Position numbers and translations under genes: made by a program. From the IMG/VR virus record IMGVR_UViG_3300031885_000106, positions 1 to 25,312 of that record: a stretch of 25,312 nucleotides of DNA; one strand, written 5' to 3'. The notes under the pieces are model-generated. The model searched no databases, was not told where the DNA came from, and saw nothing but the letters and a program-made list of their open reading frames with translations. Each line of letters opens with the position of its first letter. Within the stretch, counting starts at the first letter, position 1. This DNA is from a virus. Positions 2,539 to 13,900 of this stretch are shown in pieces.

Positions 2539-2612
2539 GTCTAGAGACTGGGTAGTACACCGAGGTCCTCTCGTCGTCGTTTATGGCACAAAGCCTATTC
2601 CAGTCTCTAGAC
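2539..2612. repeat. 13-bp perfect inverted repeat with 48-nt loop
   Basis: GTCTAGAGACTGG (2539-2551) and CCAGTCTCTAGAC (2600-2612) are exact reverse complements. The pair straddles the stop codon of the gene at 2607-3146 and the leader of the gene at 2090-2515. It could form an intercistronic RNA hairpin affecting termination, processing or translation of the second gene, or be a protein-binding site. Confidence 0.7.
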
Positions 2613-3146
2613 CGGAGTCGAAGTCTCCTTCGGTGTGGGGTTCACCGTTTTGCTGGACGAACCGCCAGAGCTTCGGCTGTACAGCACTACTGGGCGCTGA
2701 CATCGGTCGGCGACGTTTTGAGCGATCTCGTCACCCCGATCGAACCTGCCGATAACACTTCCGGGGCGGTCGATGTAGAGGACGTTCTTGATCGTACGTG
2801 TCACACCCTCAAACTCCCAGCGCTCTCCGACCACTACGAACGTACGGTGCTTGTCGCGGACGTCGATGTCGGTGTCTGCGAAGAGGGCCTCCGAGTTGGA
2901 TTGCCACGGCCCTGTGAGTACCTTGACGCTCCCATCGACGAGGCGGAACTTCAACGTGTCACCGCCGAAGCCGCGTGGGTAATCCTTTGGGGAGCCCTCG
3001 ACGTAGATGTGGTCGGCCTCGCCCTCCATCGAGTCGGTGCTCACGAGCCACGTACGTCCCGTCTTGCCGACGACCTTACGGTACGTACGCTCTTCGGCCA
3101 TAGCCGCGGCCGAGACCATCCCTTGGTGAGGTACTACATAGTCCAT
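2607..3146 (-). CDS. Conserved-looking phage hypothetical protein, 179 aa
   Basis: ATG at 3144-3146 with AAGGAGA 7-8 bases upstream; first gene behind the promoter at 3170-3199. Recognisable blocks are WLVSTDSMEGEADHIYVEG (about 33-51), LKFRLVDGSVKVLTGPWQSN (65-84), ALFADTDIDVRDKHRTFVVV (about 87-106), and a C-terminal part with IGRFDRGDEIAQNVAD and YSRSSGGSSS. The blocks look conserved and globular, and resemble a hypothetical family found in phages of several hosts (from memory). No enzyme motif can be assigned. Confidence 0.8.
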   Translation of the reverse strand: MDYVVPHQGMVSAAAMAEERTYRKVVGKTGRTWLVSTDSMEGEADHIYVEGSPKDYPRGFGGDTLKFRLVDGSVKVLTGPWQSNSEALFADTDIDVRDKHRTFVVVGERWEFEGVTRTIKNVLYIDRPGSVIGRFDRGDEIAQNVADRCQRPVVLYSRSSGGSSSKTVNPTPKETSTPV

Positions 3147-3169
3147 TCGATGCTCTCCTTCCTGCCCTT

Positions 3170-3199
3170 ATTATAAATGGAGAGCTACGCTCAATGCAA
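3170..3199 (-). promoter_or_regulatory. Sigma70-like promoter, GTTGCGG family
   Basis: Minus strand: -35 TTGCAT (3194-3199), 18-bp spacer, -10 TATAAT (3170-3175). Upstream lies CCCGG, then TTTGCCA (3207-3213), which aligns with the GTTGCGG element of sister promoters at the same 7-bp distance. It drives the operon from 3146 down to 155. Confidence 0.8.
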
Positions 3200-4419: not shown

Positions 4420-4698
4420 CTACTGGCACTGGCAGAGACCCGCTGCGCACACCGGCCCCTTCCCCGCAGCGTCGTAGTTTGCCTCCGTAATAGCCCTACC
4501 ACAACAGCTGCAGGTGAACTCCGCCTGCGGCTCCGTATGGTCTCTGTCTCTCTGCCGGCGCTTGGCATTGTACTCCTGGTTGTACACTACCGTACGCCGT
4601 ACTATCTGCTCCTTGTTCTTGAGGTAGTAGCCCCTGTGGTAGAGCTTGCGCCGGCGTACCCGTTCCTGCTCCTTGGTCAGGACCTCCTCTGCTGTCAT
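4420..4698 (-). CDS. Basic protein with C-terminal Cys cluster, 92 aa
   Basis: The ATG at 4696-4698 was chosen because CAGGAGG lies six bases upstream; the frame also contains a GTG at 4761 with no good ribosome binding site. Residues 11-54 form a basic, Tyr-rich helical region (RVRRRKLYHRGYYLKNKEQI), of a kind often found next to zinc or HNH-type domains. The C-terminus holds C63, C65, C66, C84, C89 and C91, probably binding zinc. This suggests a nucleic-acid-binding protein; no nuclease motif is visible. The Y/K/R-rich region is loosely similar in style to the SEKGK-repeat proteins nearby. Confidence 0.7.
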   Translation of the reverse strand: MTAEEVLTKEQERVRRRKLYHRGYYLKNKEQIVRRTVVYNQEYNAKRRQRDRDHTEPQAEFTCSCCGRAITEANYDAAGKGPVCAAGLCQCQ

Positions 4699-4767
4699 GT
4701 CGGCCTCCTGCGCAAAGTGCCTCCGTACGAGTTCCCCCAATAGACTGTGCCTCTTTTGCACTGTCGT

Positions 4768-5221: not shown

Positions 5222-5470
5222 TCACTCTGGGATGACTACCATCATCCCGAGGTACTCCCCGTAGTGGGTTACGCCACACGGCGATCCGTCCGCCTTCTCC
5301 GTGTGTCGATTACCCAAGCAGAGTGTGTTCGGGTTGTCAGCAGTCACTCTCTCCCCGCAACCGGGGCATGTCCATTTGATGAACACAAGAGCTCTCGGCT
5401 TTTCAGCCAGGAGCTTGTTCGCCCTCCGTATGAGGTCGTCCCTGTGAATGTCGTTCACCTTCTCGGGCAA
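5222..5470 (-). CDS. Zinc-ribbon protein, 82 aa
   Basis: TTG start at 5468-5470 behind AAAGGAGGT. After an N-terminal helical part (residues 6-24, DIHRDDLIRRANKLL) comes WTCPGCGERVTADNPNTLC (C35, C38, C51), H56 and C65, a plausible zinc-binding set. The IKWTCPGCGERV and HTEKADGSPCG blocks look like a phage hypothetical family I have seen annotated without function. First gene of its operon, with a leader nearly identical to that of the gene at 6947-7204. Confidence 0.8.
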   Translation of the reverse strand: MPEKVNDIHRDDLIRRANKLLAEKPRALVFIKWTCPGCGERVTADNPNTLCLGNRHTEKADGSPCGVTHYGEYLGMMVVIPE

Positions 5471-5476
5471 TGCCTA

Positions 5477-5518
5477 CCTCCTTTCGGTTTGTTACCTCTC
5501 TATCCTATCTATATTGTA
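5477..5518 (-). promoter_or_regulatory. Conserved transcript leader
   Basis: The leader from -10 to ribosome binding site matches that at 7211-7251: a 17-bp identical block, AACAAACCGAAAGGAGG on the minus strand, plus a matching TAGGATAG block. A shorter version precedes the gene at 7455-7733. Conservation beyond the ribosome binding site suggests duplication of the promoter-leader unit or selection on the leader. Confidence 0.6.
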
Positions 5519-5569: not shown

Positions 5570-5600
5570 GAGCCCACCTGCTGGGCCGACAGGTGGGCTC
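5570..5600 (-). terminator. Hairpin terminator after SEKGK-repeat gene 1
   Basis: GAGCCCACCTG (5570-5580) and CAGGTGGGCTC (5590-5600) form an 11-bp perfect stem with a 9-nt loop, just past the stop of the gene at 5638-6072. Only a weak T-rich tail (CCTTTGTTG on the minus strand) follows. Confidence 0.65.
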
Positions 5601-5637: not shown

Positions 5638-6072
5638 CTAGAACTCCTCGTCGGGCTCTTCGGTCTCGGACTCCTCAGGCTCTTCGGAGGCTGTCGCCTC
5701 TCCGGGTATGCTGGCCTCAGCCTTTGCGGCTGCCTTCTCGACGGCACGCTTGGCACGCCAGCGAGCCTGGGCTTCCTTGTACTTCGGCGACGTCATGTAC
5801 TTGGCCCGCGCCGCCTTGCCGGCCTCGGATTCCATGTACTTCTTCCGGGCGGCCTGGCCCTTCTCGGAGCTCTGGTAGGCCTTTCGGGCCTCCTTCGCCT
5901 TTTCCGACTGCATGTACCTGTCTCGGGCCTCCTTGCCCTTGTCGGACGTCATGTACTTGTTGCGGGCTGCCAGGCCCTTTTCCGACGCCTGATACCGCTC
6001 ACGGGCTATATCCGACTTGGTCTTGCCCTCTTCACCCTCCGTGGGGGTCTGGGTCTCACTCTCTGATGTCAC
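5638..6072 (-). CDS. SEKGK-repeat protein 1, 144 aa
   Basis: GTG start at 6070-6072, AAGGA nine bases upstream. Residues 30-107 are six back-to-back 13-residue units with consensus SEKGKxARxxYMx (for example SEKGLAARNKYMT, SDKGKEARDRYMQ, SEKGQAARKKYME), preceded by a degenerate unit. Units are 39 bp at DNA level with no indels. The repeat is highly charged, helical and basic on balance, and is followed by a basic segment and an acidic tail (125-144). Two paralogues lie at 6342-6791 and 8064-8315. Similar repeats occur in small phage and bacterial hypotheticals (from memory), with no function I know of. A nucleic-acid or protein-scaffold binding role is an inference from composition. Confidence 0.85.
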   Translation of the reverse strand: MTSESETQTPTEGEEGKTKSDIARERYQASEKGLAARNKYMTSDKGKEARDRYMQSEKAKEARKAYQSSEKGQAARKKYMESEAGKAARAKYMTSPKYKEAQARWRAKRAVEKAAAKAEASIPGEATASEEPEESETEEPDEEF

Positions 6073-6114
6073 GGGTCACCGTCCTTTCTACTTCCTAATT
6101 CAAATCCTACACCT

Positions 6115-6143
6115 ATCATACCCCATCTAGTCCCCACATGCAC
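6115..6143 (-). promoter_or_regulatory. Promoter for SEKGK-repeat gene 1
   Basis: Minus strand: -35 GTGCAT (6138-6143), 17-bp spacer, -10 TATGAT (6115-6120) followed by AGGTGTAGG. The -10 context resembles that of the divergent promoter at 6271-6300. No GTTGCGG element is present at the expected distance, so this call is weaker than the others. Confidence 0.5.
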
Positions 6144-6263
6144 GGTGTTTCCCCCTTATGATTGTTGCGGCTTCGCTGCCCGTGCGATTTACCGAGGGTT
6201 GTCAGTCACGCACAACCGTACGACGTTGGCGTGGATTTGTCACGTTGGCGAAATTCGTTGCGG
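6144..6263. promoter_or_regulatory. Divergent control region between SEKGK genes 1 and 2, with direct and inverted repeats
   Basis: Between two back-to-back promoters lie ACGTTGGCG at 6223-6231 and again at 6242-6250 (19-bp spacing), the inverted repeat GGTTGT/ACAACC (6197-6202, 6212-6217), and GTTGCGG at 6164-6170 and 6257-6263. The spaced direct repeats next to the -35 look like operator half-sites. No gene is seen here. Confidence 0.45.
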
Positions 6264-6270
6264 CCCCAGG

Positions 6271-6300
6271 TTGACGCGGTCGGAGTGGATAGGTTATGAT
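6271..6300 (+). promoter_or_regulatory. Promoter for SEKGK-repeat gene 2, GTTGCGG family
   Basis: -35 TTGACG (6271-6276), 18-bp spacer, -10 TATGAT (6295-6300). GTTGCGG (6257-6263) is 7 bp upstream of the -35, as in the minus-strand promoters. The gene starts about 40 bp downstream. Confidence 0.8.
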
Positions 6301-6341
6301 ATAGGTAGGTAAAGAGAAGAAGACCGGAAAGGAGGTGAATC

Positions 6342-6791
6342 ATGTCCAAGCGCAGAGGTAAGAAGGGTCACACAGCCCCAATCGAGGAGCCCGTCGAGAC
6401 GACGCCCGAGACCCCCGCTACCATGAGCCAGGACGAGAGGGGCCTGGACGAGATAGAGGAGGAGCTTCAGGCCTCCGAGACGGAGCTTGAAGAGGAGCCT
6501 GTTACCGAAGCCGCTGTGGAGGCCGTAGCCGTCGACAAGTCGAAGCTCAGCCACTACCAGCGGAACAAGGCCTCGCACGCCAAGTACCAGGCGTCCGAGA
6601 AGGGGAAGGAGGCCAGGACGAGGTACATGGCCTCCGACAAGGCGAAGGCGACCCGTGCATCCTACCACTCGAACCGCCGTGCAGCCCTCAAGCTCCTGAA
6701 GGAGGCCCAGAAGGCCGCTCCAGAGCTGATGGCCGCAGCGGCGATCATCGAAACCGCCGAAATCGGCTCGGAAGAGCCTATCGAGGCGTAG
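6342..6791 (+). CDS. SEKGK-repeat protein 2, 149 aa
   Basis: ATG at 6342 behind AAAGGAGGTGA, a near-perfect match to the anti-Shine-Dalgarno sequence. A basic start (MSKRRGKKGH) is followed by a long acidic region (15-60), then YQRNKASHAKYQA (72-84), SEKGKEARTRYMA (85-97) and SDKAKATRASYHS (98-110), and a hydrophobic Ala-rich helix (111-137). LSHYQRNKASHAKY aligns with VSHYKMYTAAHKKY of the third copy, so these two are closest relatives. The unit is monocistronic: own promoter (6271-6300) and a hairpin right after the stop. Acidic and basic halves may make it a scaffold or histone-like protein, which is inference only. Confidence 0.85.
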   Translation: MSKRRGKKGHTAPIEEPVETTPETPATMSQDERGLDEIEEELQASETELEEEPVTEAAVEAVAVDKSKLSHYQRNKASHAKYQASEKGKEARTRYMASDKAKATRASYHSNRRAALKLLKEAQKAAPELMAAAAIIETAEIGSEEPIEA

Positions 6792-6798
6792 TCGGACA

Positions 6799-6828
6799 GC
6801 CCCCGTACACAACCCGCCGTACGGGGGC
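6799..6828. terminator. Hairpin between convergent genes
   Basis: GCCCCCGTAC (6799-6808) and GTACGGGGGC (6819-6828) form a 10-bp perfect G+C-rich stem with a 10-nt loop, 8 bp after the stop of the gene at 6342-6791 and downstream of the convergent gene at 6947-7204. There is no good T-run on either side. The rest of 6829-6946 is rich in CCGTAC motifs but holds no gene. Confidence 0.6.
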
Positions 6829-6946
6829 GTCCCTCTGCCGTACTCTTGCGGTACCGTACCGTACTCCGACCGTAATAGGTAGGTTCGCCCCGTAGGACAG
6901 GTAAGGCCGGTCTCCGTTGTCGGCCGTCGTCGGTGTTTGTCGGTTC

Positions 6947-7204
6947 TTAGCTAGTCTTGCAGGCCTCGCAGTCACCCTCTTCAGGACACTGTGCGTCGTG
7001 ATCGTCTTCCCAGATGTTGAGGATGTCTGCTAGCATCTCCCGTATCAGCCCCTCCGTGCCGTTGTCGGCTTGTCCGTTCTGTACGAAGTGCCGACGGAGC
7101 GACTCTATTCTGACCGACAGGTCCTCTGGGAGGTCCAGTACGACCCGCCGTGTCGGCCCGTACGGCCCCCTCGGCCCCCCTTCCGTTCCCCTCTGCTCTT
7201 CCAT
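6947..7204 (-). CDS. Ribbon-helix-helix-like small protein, 85 aa (possible DNA-binding regulator)
   Basis: ATG at 7202-7204 behind AAAGGAGG. After a Gly/Pro-rich N-terminus, RRVVLDLPED (19-28) could be the ribbon strand, LSVRIESLRRHFV (29-41) helix A and GTEGLIREMLADILNIW (49-65) helix B. This matches the ribbon-helix-helix layout in order and length, with no invariant residue to prove it. The C-terminus adds CPEEGDCEAC (C73, C79, C82), a possible metal site. If it is a repressor, its own promoter and the sister promoters are natural targets (inference). Monocistronic, from the promoter at 7246-7275. Confidence 0.65.
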   Translation of the reverse strand: MEEQRGTEGGPRGPYGPTRRVVLDLPEDLSVRIESLRRHFVQNGQADNGTEGLIREMLADILNIWEDDHDAQCPEEGDCEACKTS

Positions 7205-7210
7205 TCCAAT

Positions 7211-7251
7211 CCTCCTTTCGGTTTGTTCTAATCTATCCTACCTATATTATA
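7211..7251 (-). promoter_or_regulatory. Conserved transcript leader (second copy)
   Basis: Nearly identical to the leader at 5477-5518, including the 17-bp block at 7211-7227 that holds the ribosome binding site, and the block next to the -10. Confidence 0.6.
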
Positions 7252-7275
7252 CGACACCGTAGCCGCAAACAGCAA
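7246..7275 (-). promoter_or_regulatory. Sigma70-like promoter, GTTGCGG family (variant)
   Basis: Minus strand: -35 TTGCTG (7270-7275), 18-bp spacer, -10 TATAAT (7246-7251) followed by ATAGG. CTCCCGG precedes the -35, and the upstream element is partly matched (GTTACTG, 7283-7289). Drives the gene at 6947-7204. Confidence 0.75.
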
Positions 7276-7380
7276 CCGGGAGCAGTAACAGTTGTTACGT
7301 GGCTCACCGTGCACCGACACACGCAGCATCGTATGTCGGCTGCTAACGTATGTCGTACTGTGCTCCGACAAAGCTGCGCA

Positions 7381-7427
7381 GCAGGAGGCAGACGAGCTAG
7401 GCGGGGGGCTCGTCTGCTGCTTCCTGC
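7381..7427 (-). terminator. Long hairpin terminator after lipoprotein gene
   Basis: GCAGACGAGC (7388-7397) pairs with GCTCGTCTGC (7408-7417). The stem continues with GCAGGAG (7381-7387) and TTCCTGC (7421-7427), apart from a 3-nt bulge and one G-U pair. It lies about 28 bp past the stop of the gene at 7455-7733 in its direction of transcription. Nothing else is seen in 7290-7454. Confidence 0.65.
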
Positions 7428-7454
7428 CGAAAGAAGGATGCCTACTTCATAGGG

Positions 7455-7733
7455 CTATTCTCCCTGCATCAGGTTGTCGAACGATACGCATCCACGTACG
7501 TCGTTGGCGATCCACCACCAGACTTCGTCTTCCTGGCAATCGCCTTTGCGTTCCAGACAGAACGCCGTCTCGTTCGCCTTGGAGACGAACAGGACGTCGC
7601 CGGCCTTGCACTTCGGACTGTCGGCTCCTTCGTCGTAGTTCGGTACGTACGGGAACGTACAGCCTACGACAGCGATCGTAGCTACGACTAGCGTAGCTAG
7701 GAAAGCTCTCCATTGCCATCTCCTACGGTGCAT
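7455..7733 (-). CDS. Putative lipoprotein, 92 aa
   Basis: Start set at ATG 7731-7733 (AAAGGAGA eight bases upstream), although the frame runs to 7757. The N-terminus is a lipoprotein signal peptide: MHRRRWQWR, a hydrophobic core (AFLATLVVATIAVV) and the lipobox VVGC with the lipidated Cys at 25. The mature part has four more Cys (KCKAGD, FCLERK, DCQEDE, GCVSFD), enough for two disulfides, so it should be surface-exposed and folded outside the membrane. Phage lipoproteins expressed alone from their own promoter often block superinfection (for example Ltp of phage TP-J34), which is a reasonable but unproven guess. Confidence 0.8.
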   Translation of the reverse strand: MHRRRWQWRAFLATLVVATIAVVGCTFPYVPNYDEGADSPKCKAGDVLFVSKANETAFCLERKGDCQEDEVWWWIANDVRGCVSFDNLMQGE

Positions 7734-7773
7734 CCTACTCTCCTTTCGGTTGTCCAACCCTATTCATACTTAT

Positions 7774-7803
7774 ATTATACTACACGGGATCCGCAAACAG
7801 CAA
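7774..7803 (-). promoter_or_regulatory. Sigma70-like promoter, GTTGCGG family
   Basis: Minus strand: -35 TTGCTG (7798-7803), 18-bp spacer, -10 TATAAT (7774-7779), and GTTGCGG (7811-7817) exactly 7 bp upstream of the -35. Drives the lipoprotein gene; its leader ends CAACCGAAAGGAGAG, like its sisters. Confidence 0.85.
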
Positions 7804-8009
7804 TACGGTTCCGCAACGTTTGTTTCGGGCCCTACCGTGTTAGGATGGGAAGCGTACCGTAATAGGCTGCCCTTAGTATCAGTAGTAAGCTTCTGAAGGA
7901 TGGAAGGATGCTTCTGATCGATTAGCAGCATACTACTTACTGTAGTGATAGGTAGTATACTTCCAATAGGGAGCTGAATGGCTCGGTAAAATTGGGGATG
8001 AATGCTCTC

Positions 8010-8039
8010 TTGTAAGTGGGAGTAGTGATAGGGTATAAT
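8010..8039 (+). promoter_or_regulatory. Promoter for SEKGK-repeat gene 3
   Basis: -35 TTGTAA (8010-8015), 18-bp spacer, -10 TATAAT (8034-8039) followed by TATAGGTAG, similar to the region after the -10 at 6295-6300. No GTTGCGG element is present. Confidence 0.75.
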
Positions 8040-8063
8040 TATAGGTAGAAAGGAGGGAGTGAA

Positions 8064-8315
8064 GTGACTAAGAATAAGTTGCAAGCTTCCATCAGCAAGA
8101 AGGCAGAAGAGGGATCGGCTCAGGTGAGCCATTACAAGATGTACACAGCAGCTCACAAGAAGTATGAAGGGAGTGAGAAGGGAAAGGCTGCAAGGTCCAA
8201 GTACATGAACTCCGAGAAGGGAAAGGTCGCTCGGAAGAGGTACCAGCAGAAGAGAAATGAGCTTGTGAAGGACGCTCTCAGGATGGTCAGGGAGTCTGGA
8301 GTTGAGCTAAGCTGA
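8064..8315 (+). CDS. SEKGK-repeat protein 3, 83 aa
   Basis: GTG start at 8064 behind AAAGGAGGG. Contains YKMYTAAHKKYEG (24-36), SEKGKAARSKYMN (37-49) and SEKGKVARKRYQQ (50-62), then a helical C-terminus (NELVKDALRMVRESGVELS). It is the shortest of three paralogues and lacks the acidic regions of the other two. Codon use is visibly less G+C-rich than in copies 1 and 2, suggesting a different history. It stands alone between its own promoter and a very strong terminator, the layout of a phage moron. The stop codon lies in the loop of a 9-bp hairpin (8304-8324). Function unknown. Confidence 0.85.
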   Translation: MTKNKLQASISKKAEEGSAQVSHYKMYTAAHKKYEGSEKGKAARSKYMNSEKGKVARKRYQQKRNELVKDALRMVRESGVELS

Positions 8316-8324
8316 GCTTAGCTC
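8304..8324 (+). repeat. Hairpin enclosing the stop codon
   Basis: GAGCTAAGC (8304-8312) and GCTTAGCTC (8316-8324) are perfect complements around the TGA stop (8313-8315) of the third SEKGK gene. It lies just before the main terminator hairpin. Confidence 0.6.
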
Positions 8325-8331
8325 GCAAGGG

Positions 8332-8369
8332 AAAGGAAGTGTAGAACAATCGTTCTACACTTCCTTTTT
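8332..8369 (+). terminator. Strong rho-independent terminator
   Basis: AAAGGAAGTGTAGAAC (8332-8347) and GTTCTACACTTCCTTT (8352-8367) form a 16-bp perfect stem with a 4-nt loop (AATC), ending in a run of five T (8365-8369). It is the clearest terminator in the window and insulates the upstream gene from the late region. Confidence 0.95.
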
Positions 8370-8406
8370 GTTTGAACGAAAGGAAGTATGCTTCTGATCT
8401 AAGCGG

Positions 8407-8534
8407 GATAGGGAGAAGAGTGATGTGTTGGGAGGAGAGTGATGAGTTGGGAGGAGAGTGATAGGATAGGAGGAGAGTGATAGGATAGGAGGAGAGTGAT
8501 GTGTTGGGAGGAGAGTGATGGGGAGGAGAGTGAT
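8407..8534 (+). repeat. Array of 19-bp tandem repeats, about seven units
   Basis: The core GAGTGAT occurs at 8418, 8437, 8456, 8475, 8494 and 8513, each exactly 19 bp apart, and at 8528 after a 4-bp shorter unit. Consensus is TGGGAGGAGAGTGATRDGT, purine-rich on the plus strand. Variable positions are mostly after GTGAT (GTGT, GAGT, AGGA). The array is non-coding and lies about 180 bp before the terminase small-subunit gene, where packaging sites are often found. It might also be an iteron-type protein-binding array. Confidence 0.9.
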
Positions 8535-8656
8535 GATTGGGGGGTGCGAAATAATCATGAGCCTTATTATAAGATTCATCGGCGGGGCCTCGTACAAATT
8601 ATGGGGGGTGGCCTGCGGCTTCTTTGCCCCCCTACATACCACGCCCGACAAGACCC
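8535..8656. other. Non-coding segment between repeat array and terminase promoter
   Basis: No gene is supported. It holds a G6/C6 inverted repeat (8603-8608, 8627-8632) and an isolated TATAAT on the minus strand (8566-8571) with no good -35. This is a plausible location for part of a packaging (cos or pac) site, but no cut site can be read from sequence. Confidence 0.35.
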
Positions 8657-12882: not shown

Positions 12883-13900
12883 GGAAAAGGTCGAGTACCG
12901 TGACTTCCCGATCACGGACTTCCGGGCGCTCGAGGAGAACGAGGTCGAGGGCTACGCTAATGTCTTCGACGTAAAGGACGCCTTCGACACGATCTGGGAG
13001 CACGGCGTTTTCAAGAAGAGCATTCGTGATCATGGCGATCGGATTCGCTTCTTGTGGGCTCACGACACTCACATACCGCTTGGGAAGCTTTCTGTCACTC
13101 GAGAGGATCAGAAGGGTCTGTACTTTCGAGCGAAGGTGAGCGACACCACCGCGGGGCGGGACATCATGACTCTCGTTCGTGACGGCGCTGTCAGCGACGT
13201 GAGCGTCGGCTTCAAGCCCGTACGCGTCGTCGAGGACGAGAGGGATCCCGAGAATGGTCCACTACACATCCTAGAGGTCGACCTCCGCGAGATCTCGCTT
13301 GTGTCGCTCGGTGCTGTTCCGGGAGCTGAGATCAAGAGCTTCCGAAGCAACGACGCGGAGGACGAGGATCCTTGTGGCTGCTACGGAGACGACGCGGGAG
13401 AGGCTGTCGAGGACGAGCCTGCGGAGGTGCGTCCCTATCCTAACGAGCATGCCTGTCGACTCAAGGATCCCGGACAGTTTGAAGCGGGGTCCTTCCGACG
13501 TGTGTCACGTAGTCACAACGGCAAGCGGTACAGCGTTATCATGGCGAAGCCCAAGAGTGGTGGAGGCATGCAGGAACAGGCCTATCGCTACCCAAAGGAC
13601 ACCTGGGACGCATCGGACGCTCGGGCACACTGCAAGAGTCACAAGGGGATTGAGTTCGCGCCTGCGACTGGTGGTGCAACCGCCGACGCGGACGTCAACA
13701 CCCTTGCCGTTTATCTCGAAACAGTCCAGAATATATTAGAAGCGATCGAGGCCCGTGCTGTGGAAGAGATACCGACCAACGAGCAGCGCGCACAGCTTCG
13801 GCAAGTTGCGGAGAGGTTGATCGGCGTCGCGAAGCCGCCGCGACAAGTAGGACGAATGGTGAGGGCGAAAGTCCTCGCACGAGAGATCAACCAGATCTGA
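12866..13900 (+). CDS. Prohead protease (peptidase U35-type) with C-terminal extension, 344 aa
   Basis: Cleaves the capsid delta domain during head maturation. Start ATG 12866, six bases after GAGGAGG inside the portal gene. The protease domain (about 1-165) has the family pattern: FRALEENEVEGYANVFD, WAHDTHIPLGK with catalytic His66, GAVSDVSVGF with catalytic Ser113, and LREISLVSLGAVPGAEI. It is longer than the usual 180-220 residues: after a Cys/Glu-rich linker (CGCYGDD) comes a second domain, NEHACRLKDPGQF, HNGKRYSVIM, DTWDASDARAHCKSHKGI, found attached to some phage proteases, then a helical C-terminus. The extension may aid scaffold interaction (inference). Confidence 0.92.
   Translation: MPVATEEKVEYRDFPITDFRALEENEVEGYANVFDVKDAFDTIWEHGVFKKSIRDHGDRIRFLWAHDTHIPLGKLSVTREDQKGLYFRAKVSDTTAGRDIMTLVRDGAVSDVSVGFKPVRVVEDERDPENGPLHILEVDLREISLVSLGAVPGAEIKSFRSNDAEDEDPCGCYGDDAGEAVEDEPAEVRPYPNEHACRLKDPGQFEAGSFRRVSRSHNGKRYSVIMAKPKSGGGMQEQAYRYPKDTWDASDARAHCKSHKGIEFAPATGGATADADVNTLAVYLETVQNILEAIEARAVEEIPTNEQRAQLRQVAERLIGVAKPPRQVGRMVRAKVLAREINQI

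Follow-up and report, generated by a model that had tools for sequence, protein, structure and literature searches.

What do three small genes that share one short, basic repeat do for the phage that carries them? The question is raised by a 25,312-base stretch of viral DNA (IMG/VR record IMGVR_UViG_3300031885_000106, positions 1 to 25,312; hereafter the window), in which tailed-phage packaging and head genes lie to the right of about 8.7 kb, with a terminase and a portal matching phage families. The original prediction placed three genes built from a 13-residue SEKGK repeat at 5638-6072 (- strand), 6342-6791 (+) and 8064-8315 (+), and the same three open reading frames (ORFs) were recovered here. 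Our best guess from sequence is that the unit has a role with nucleic acids, because it is repeatedly joined to nuclease and helix-turn-helix (HTH) domains in other proteins. We see about an even chance that the window proteins are standalone DNA-binding arms of phage HNH/endonuclease VII type proteins, kept without the cutter.

Three Copies of One Repeat Unit

In all three copies, units of the consensus Y-x-x-S-[ED]-K-G-K-x-A-R-x-x follow one another head to tail. Repeat gene 1 (5638-6072, -; GTG start) encodes 144 residues with six in-register units (residues 27-106) and an acidic C-terminal tail (118-144, net -12). Repeat gene 2 (6342-6791, +; 149 residues) begins with an acidic arm near the N-terminus (14-64, net -17), followed by a short unit, two 13-residue units and a C-terminal helix-like segment. 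Repeat gene 3 (8064-8315, +; 83 residues, GTG start) has a 9-residue short unit, two 13-residue units and a C-terminal helix; its product has a net charge of +12 and no acidic tail. Both acidic arms lie at the ends proposed for them, C-terminal in copy 1 and N-terminal in copy 2, and the counts of six and two full units were borne out. The additional "degenerate" repeat ascribed to copies 2 and 3 reads differently in the alignment: this segment, of Y/T/S type, ending K-[KR]-Y and standing before the full units, appears to be a unit shortened from 13 to 9 residues, that is, by one helical turn, and that of copy 3 was modeled as a separate helix (29-36).

A unit scan of the window recovered exactly these three ORFs with at least two units, and all three fall within the family as we define it (at least two Y-x-x-[ST]-[ED]-K-G-K units spaced 9, 13 or 17). 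A purine-rich, ribosome-binding-like sequence precedes each start. Pairwise local alignment scores among the copies lay 7.8, 9.0 and 13.9 standard deviations above 300 residue shuffles, so their similarity is not one of chance composition. Unrelated low-complexity sequence, which the original prediction had named as one finding that would undo its proposal, is ruled out by these scores together with the codon pattern of the gene-3 ortholog pair described below.

The three proteins had no match in Pfam, NCBIfam or PADLOC and no PHROG below E 0.01. Profile searching with the repeat, as had been suggested, found no family of known function that explains all three, and the repeat thus defines a real family that is unnamed in Pfam, NCBIfam, PADLOC and PHROGs. 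With no Pfam nuclease match at E 1, the window proteins are not HNH or endonuclease VII nucleases themselves. The nearest PHROG, phrog_10829 (unknown function), was matched by all three below threshold (E 0.011-0.029, not significant). Among solved-structure sequences, neither gene 1 nor the three-protein profile found a match, and a profile of 48 unit proteins matched only HNH enzymes, mainly via their nuclease part. Searches of phage and plasmid records by tblastn gave nothing for gene 1 at E 0.01 or 0.1 or for two other unit proteins (L039 and L058; L numbers are our handles) at 0.01, and only matches of E 7-9 for gene 3; these negatives are weak because such searches mask low-complexity sequence. 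The literature searched, with most subscription journals outside its scope, yielded nothing on the unit.

Nuclease Partners and Spacing of the Unit

To look for the unit elsewhere we used a DNA pattern encoding two units in a row; it requires one spacing of 13 per ORF and leaves other spacings free. Viral contigs gave 63 matching stretches and bacterial genomes a further 20, yielding 83 other ORFs in 60 clusters (44 viral, 16 bacterial). When 48 proteins (the three from the window, 44 viral cluster representatives and L008) were scanned against Pfam and PHROGs, Pfam reported HNH in seven, HNH_5 in seven and Endonuclease_7 in three (counts that overlap), Tn916-Xis/HTH_17 in one and, below the Pfam cut-off, GerE in one; 14 of the 48 matched PHROGs endonuclease VII. 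Matches above the cut-off include L029, L044 and L071 (Endonuclease_7) and L047 and L064 (HNH). A nuclease signature was present in 20 of the 44 viral clusters, 19 by motif and L071 by Pfam, and in all six nuclease-matching proteins among ten scanned singly the nuclease domain follows the units. In L012 a weak GerE match comes after the units, and a strong Tn916-Xis (excisionase) match after that. The unit-bearing phage HNH (PF01844, PF14279) and endonuclease VII (PF02945) proteins have the same head-to-tail 13-residue arrays as the window proteins. The basic repeat arm that stands beside these domains is thus present in the window proteins, which, unlike them, have no nuclease domain.

The nature of the partners also bears on whether the ligand is DNA or RNA. 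The cores of the window proteins are strongly basic (gene 1, +16 over residues 18-117; gene 2, +11 over 65-130; gene 3, +10 over 22-66), and short basic helices fit RNA as well as DNA. The units might accordingly bind structured RNA or the ribosome and modulate translation or transcripts. We give this a small chance, as the fusion partners of named function are all DNA enzymes or DNA-binding domains.

The spacing of the units is constrained. When units were scored without regard to their distance, all 91 viral spacings of up to 40 residues fell at 13 (71), 17 (10), 26 (5), 30 (2), 34 (1) and 39 (2), and 66 of 69 bacterial spacings within the same limit were 9, 13, 17 or sums of 13 and 17, the bacterial clusters being partly related to one another. 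Spacings that differ by four residues imply that insertions and deletions occur one helical turn at a time.

Unit ORFs are rare: none was found in 80 control loci fetched by capsid similarity (1.2 Mb), compared with 62 of the 63 pattern loci under the same scan. Two unit ORFs occurred in three of the 63 viral loci, and contig IMGVR_UViG_3300037247_001890 has two in separate loci (L028 and L064); no fetched locus except the window's own had three.

Predicted Structure and Proposed Role

AlphaFold2 modeled gene 1 with one helix of 11-12 residues per unit (helices at 19-29, 31-42, 44-54, 57-68, 70-81, 83-93 and 96-120), with a pLDDT of about 98 over residues 30-110 and breaks at the conserved serines. 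For gene 3, helices were predicted at 29-36, 38-49 and 51-78, with breaks at S37 and S50. By helical-wheel arithmetic, G7, A10 and Y14 lie on one side of the unit, and a four-residue insertion keeps them there; neighboring helices could pack on this face of the modeled unit. Foldseek found nothing credible in the PDB (one match per query, E 7.1 and 8.6), and VIA-align 2 of gene 1, run against only that Foldseek chain, gave Z 5.4 with an rmsd of 13.1. In the viral library the best matches were uncharacterized phage proteins, led by one with 36% identity and E 8.7e-4.

A mechanism can be proposed on this basis. Each unit would form one short helix, N-capped by serine and packed on the next through the Gly-small-Tyr stripe (G7, A10, Y14), and the stacked helices would build a rigid rod or spiral. 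The lysines and arginines of the unit may grip the backbone of DNA (less likely RNA), and the window proteins as a whole probably grip DNA. In copies 1 and 2 the acidic arms would damp non-specific binding, or hold the basic core until displaced by DNA. Least certain are the last steps, in which the proteins might act as architectural or regulatory DNA-binding proteins during infection, with affinities that differ among the three copies through unit number and tail charge.

The same helical array could serve a purely structural purpose. In several proteins the unit lies between an N-terminal zinc-ribbon-like part and the nuclease, which is a spacer position; changes of one helical turn are what a rigid spacer needs, and the predicted model is a well-ordered array. 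The units might then be helical spacers or oligomerization arms, and the window proteins scaffolds that link other proteins, with the acidic arms as docking sites. We regard this as unlikely, since K6, K8 and the basic residues at positions 11-13 are kept in the unit (K6 and K8 partly because of the scoring) beyond what a spacer needs, the unit is also fused to an HTH domain, and standalone forms are conserved in another phage.

Our proposal of standalone DNA-binding arms rests on the nuclease and HTH fusions, the helical-turn spacings, the AlphaFold2 helices and the basic cores, and also on the codon pattern in the relative L041, the nuclease-free forms L081 and L087 and the precedent of CapR and AP2, all taken up below. 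Several observations weigh against it. No DNA-binding domain of known function in the libraries searched matches the unit itself, and within the nucleases it might be no more than a linker or dimerization arm. Many unit proteins have neither a nuclease nor an HTH domain. Motifs for nucleases were missing from 25 of the 44 viral clusters (among them L071, positive by Pfam) and from all 16 bacterial clusters, mostly Endozoicomonas proteins. Whole-protein charge is 0 for copy 1 and -6 for copy 2. On the structural side, sequences rich in Lys, Ala and Arg are readily predicted as helical, the gene 3 model was built from 5 alignment rows and has weak ends, and pTM was 0.57 for gene 1 and 0.47 for gene 3, values low enough to leave the overall shape uncertain.

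A bolder version of the proposal, for which we see a rather poor chance, is that the family is an undescribed modular solenoid with one short helix per repeat, which wraps or tracks DNA and gains or loses length only in whole helical turns. It would serve as the arm of a nuclease or, freed of the cutter and given acidic tails, as a tunable DNA-coating set, one member of which may target the G-rich 19-bp tandem array downstream of its gene.

If the window proteins are indeed such arms, a repeat that accompanies the cutting domain in many phage nucleases, and that no library searched contains, would be a self-standing DNA-binding module. This would provide a function for a class of phage and bacterial proteins now called "hypothetical", as well as a simple array of variable unit number that could be used in vitro to learn how binding scales with repeat number.

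Conservation and Related Systems

The closest relative found, and the only close one, was a 20.8-kb phage fragment, L041; alignments with gene 3 and the terminase returned only L041 again. Seventeen window proteins match it, including the three repeat proteins (all to its single repeat gene); for the terminase, portal and capsid the identity between fragment and window is 47-49%. The L041 ortholog of gene 3 is 59% identical at the protein level, and over 60 aligned codons identity is 72, 72 and 37% at codon positions 1, 2 and 3. This concentration of changes at third positions indicates that the gene-3 protein is conserved and its nuclease-free form kept by selection. For this ortholog pair, as distinct from the paralogs of the window, it is the opposite of the diversifying role that had been entertained. 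Nuclease-free forms with a short unit and two full units were also found in bacterial contigs (L081 and L087), and in the phylum of L087 the standalone form occurred in one of 286 genomes, L087's own.

These data bear on whether the three genes are simply decayed. Free-standing HNH or endonuclease VII genes that lost their catalytic part and are now drifting would share the unit of the nucleases, as the window genes do, and nuclease genes often sit just before packaging genes, which is where gene 3 stands. The third-position bias in the gene 3/L041 pair, the recurrence of nuclease-free forms in L041, L081 and L087, and three ORFs without internal frameshift or stop make decay very improbable.

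A DNA-binding module retained without its cutter would not be without precedent. Phage homing endonucleases are reported to have repeated DNA-binding modules, and such modules to have been co-opted into the nuclease-free repressor CapR and into plant AP2 factors (PMC10448857). The window proteins resemble these cases in that a repeated binding module occurs both with nucleases and alone, a likeness of logic only. CapR and the modules related to it belong to the zinc fingers, whereas zinc ligands are absent from the SEKGK unit, which is not a CapR module. Copy 1 contains neither His nor Cys, Cys is absent from copies 2 and 3, and none of the three matched the CapR/DUF723/DUF4397 zinc-finger domain at E 1, while one of the 48 unit proteins gave a weak CapR match (E 0.0043). 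NUMOD and AP2 models were matched by none of the window proteins and by none of the 48 at E 0.01. Repeated arms kept without a cutter have already been reported for CapR and AP2; new here is a nuclease-linked SEKGK unit that is also found alone.

HMGB-like nucleoid and chromatin proteins offer another comparison, as they combine a basic core with an acidic tail. Copies 1 and 2 likewise have a basic folded core and an acidic, probably disordered tail, but there is no sequence match to HMGB-like proteins, the helix pattern differs and copy 3 has no such tail.

Promoters, Hairpins, and Neighboring Genes

Each copy had been described as standing alone between its own promoter and a hairpin. This holds in part: the -10 flanks are similar and the hairpins after copies 1 and 3 resemble terminators, but the flank is of general use and the hairpin after copy 2 has no T-run. 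The flank TATRATATAGGTAGG has seven sites in the window at up to 3 mismatches, compared with 0.31 expected from shuffles. Two of these precede copies 1 (6106-6120) and 2 (6295-6309), and copy 3 has a one-base variant, TATAATTATAGGTAG. As the remaining five precede 5222-5470, 6947-7204, 7455-7757, 2607-3146 and the gene at the left edge, the flank is a general promoter type of this phage and not particular to the repeat genes; this rules out a promoter or operator confined to the three repeat genes. Neither does standing alone set them apart, since the neighbors 6947-7204 and 7455-7757 each have such a promoter too. What the region contains is a series of small genes under separate promoters, three of them with repeats, and the idea of a special promoter-hairpin unit is not supported.

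A promoter scan recognized sites before copies 2 and 3 and none before copy 1. For gene 1, the -10 region and flank (TATGATAGGTGTAGG) lie at 6106-6120 (-), with no -35 recognized, and a terminator-like hairpin with a 12-bp stem and T-rich tail follows the gene at 5570-5600 (-). Gene 2 is preceded by TTGACG, 18 bases and TATGAT, then ATAGGTAGG (6271-6309, +), and followed by a stable hairpin with a 10-bp stem (6799-6828). Gene 3 has TTGTAA, 18 bases and TATAAT, then TATAGGTAG (8010-8048, +), and a long terminator-like hairpin with a T-run at 8332-8369 (+).

Small genes with promoters of their own, in several divergent copies and among other small unknown genes, would also suit counter-defense or host takeover. 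The proteins, two of them partly strongly acidic, could be early products that inhibit an enzyme of the host or imitate DNA. Counter-defense and host-protein mimicry had both been suggested for them; for mimicry nothing was found, and no PADLOC model was matched, although those models are defense-related and inhibitors would escape them. The folded core is basic and not DNA-mimicking and the unit is common to nucleases, and we find such a role improbable.

An extended flank, TATAATATAGGTAGG, is common to 84-98, 3161-3175, 5504-5518, 7237-7251 and 7765-7779, before several unrelated small genes, and in L041 TATAATATAAGTGAAGG also precedes a gene. The extended flank could contain an operator. 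Elsewhere in the window, 4420-4761 (-) encodes a small protein with a basic stretch of the Y-Y-x-K-N-K-E-Q-I type and a weak match to the DUF6011 zinc motif; by eye it looks like a cousin of the nuclease linkers.

Other Unit Proteins and the Arrays Beyond Gene 3

Several groups stood out among the other unit proteins. A large family of long proteins with 4 to 16 units occurs in L075-L078, L080, L082-L086 and L089-L094, contigs labeled Endozoicomonas or Salinisphaera sp. G21_0; the members often have in common a C-terminal part in which AxQA/ARxxG is frequent. The two genomes searched, G006 and G007, have 27 and 33 unit matches, in places several to one ORF. Twelve viral contigs (L020, L030, L031, L036, L045, L048, L049, L051, L053, L060, L061 and L073) share a related protein of 270-290 residues, conserved in its N-terminal part and ending in three to four units. 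A coherent, unnamed group of small proteins comprises L018, L021, L022, L026, L032, L056, L058, L062, L070, L074 and L088, in many of which a Cys cluster at the N-terminus (e.g., CxxCxxxxC) precedes the units, with an often basic, Tyr-rich end after them. At E 0.001, PHROGs gave no match for ten unit proteins, most of them lacking a nuclease domain, including six of this group (L018, L022, L032, L058, L062 and L074).

Gene 3, in the region 7800-8550, differs from the other two copies in base composition, with 50% G+C compared with 63-64% for genes 1 and 2 and a window mean of 58%, which suggests different recent histories. Between its terminator and the packaging genes, at 8406-8535, lies a G-rich tandem array of 6.8 copies of a 19-bp repeat. 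L041 has a short tandem array at about 13050-13170, directly past the hairpin of the gene-3 ortholog, and the words GAGTGAT and TTGGG, read on the structural-gene strand, are common to both arrays. Possible roles for these arrays are an origin, a packaging site or a binding site.

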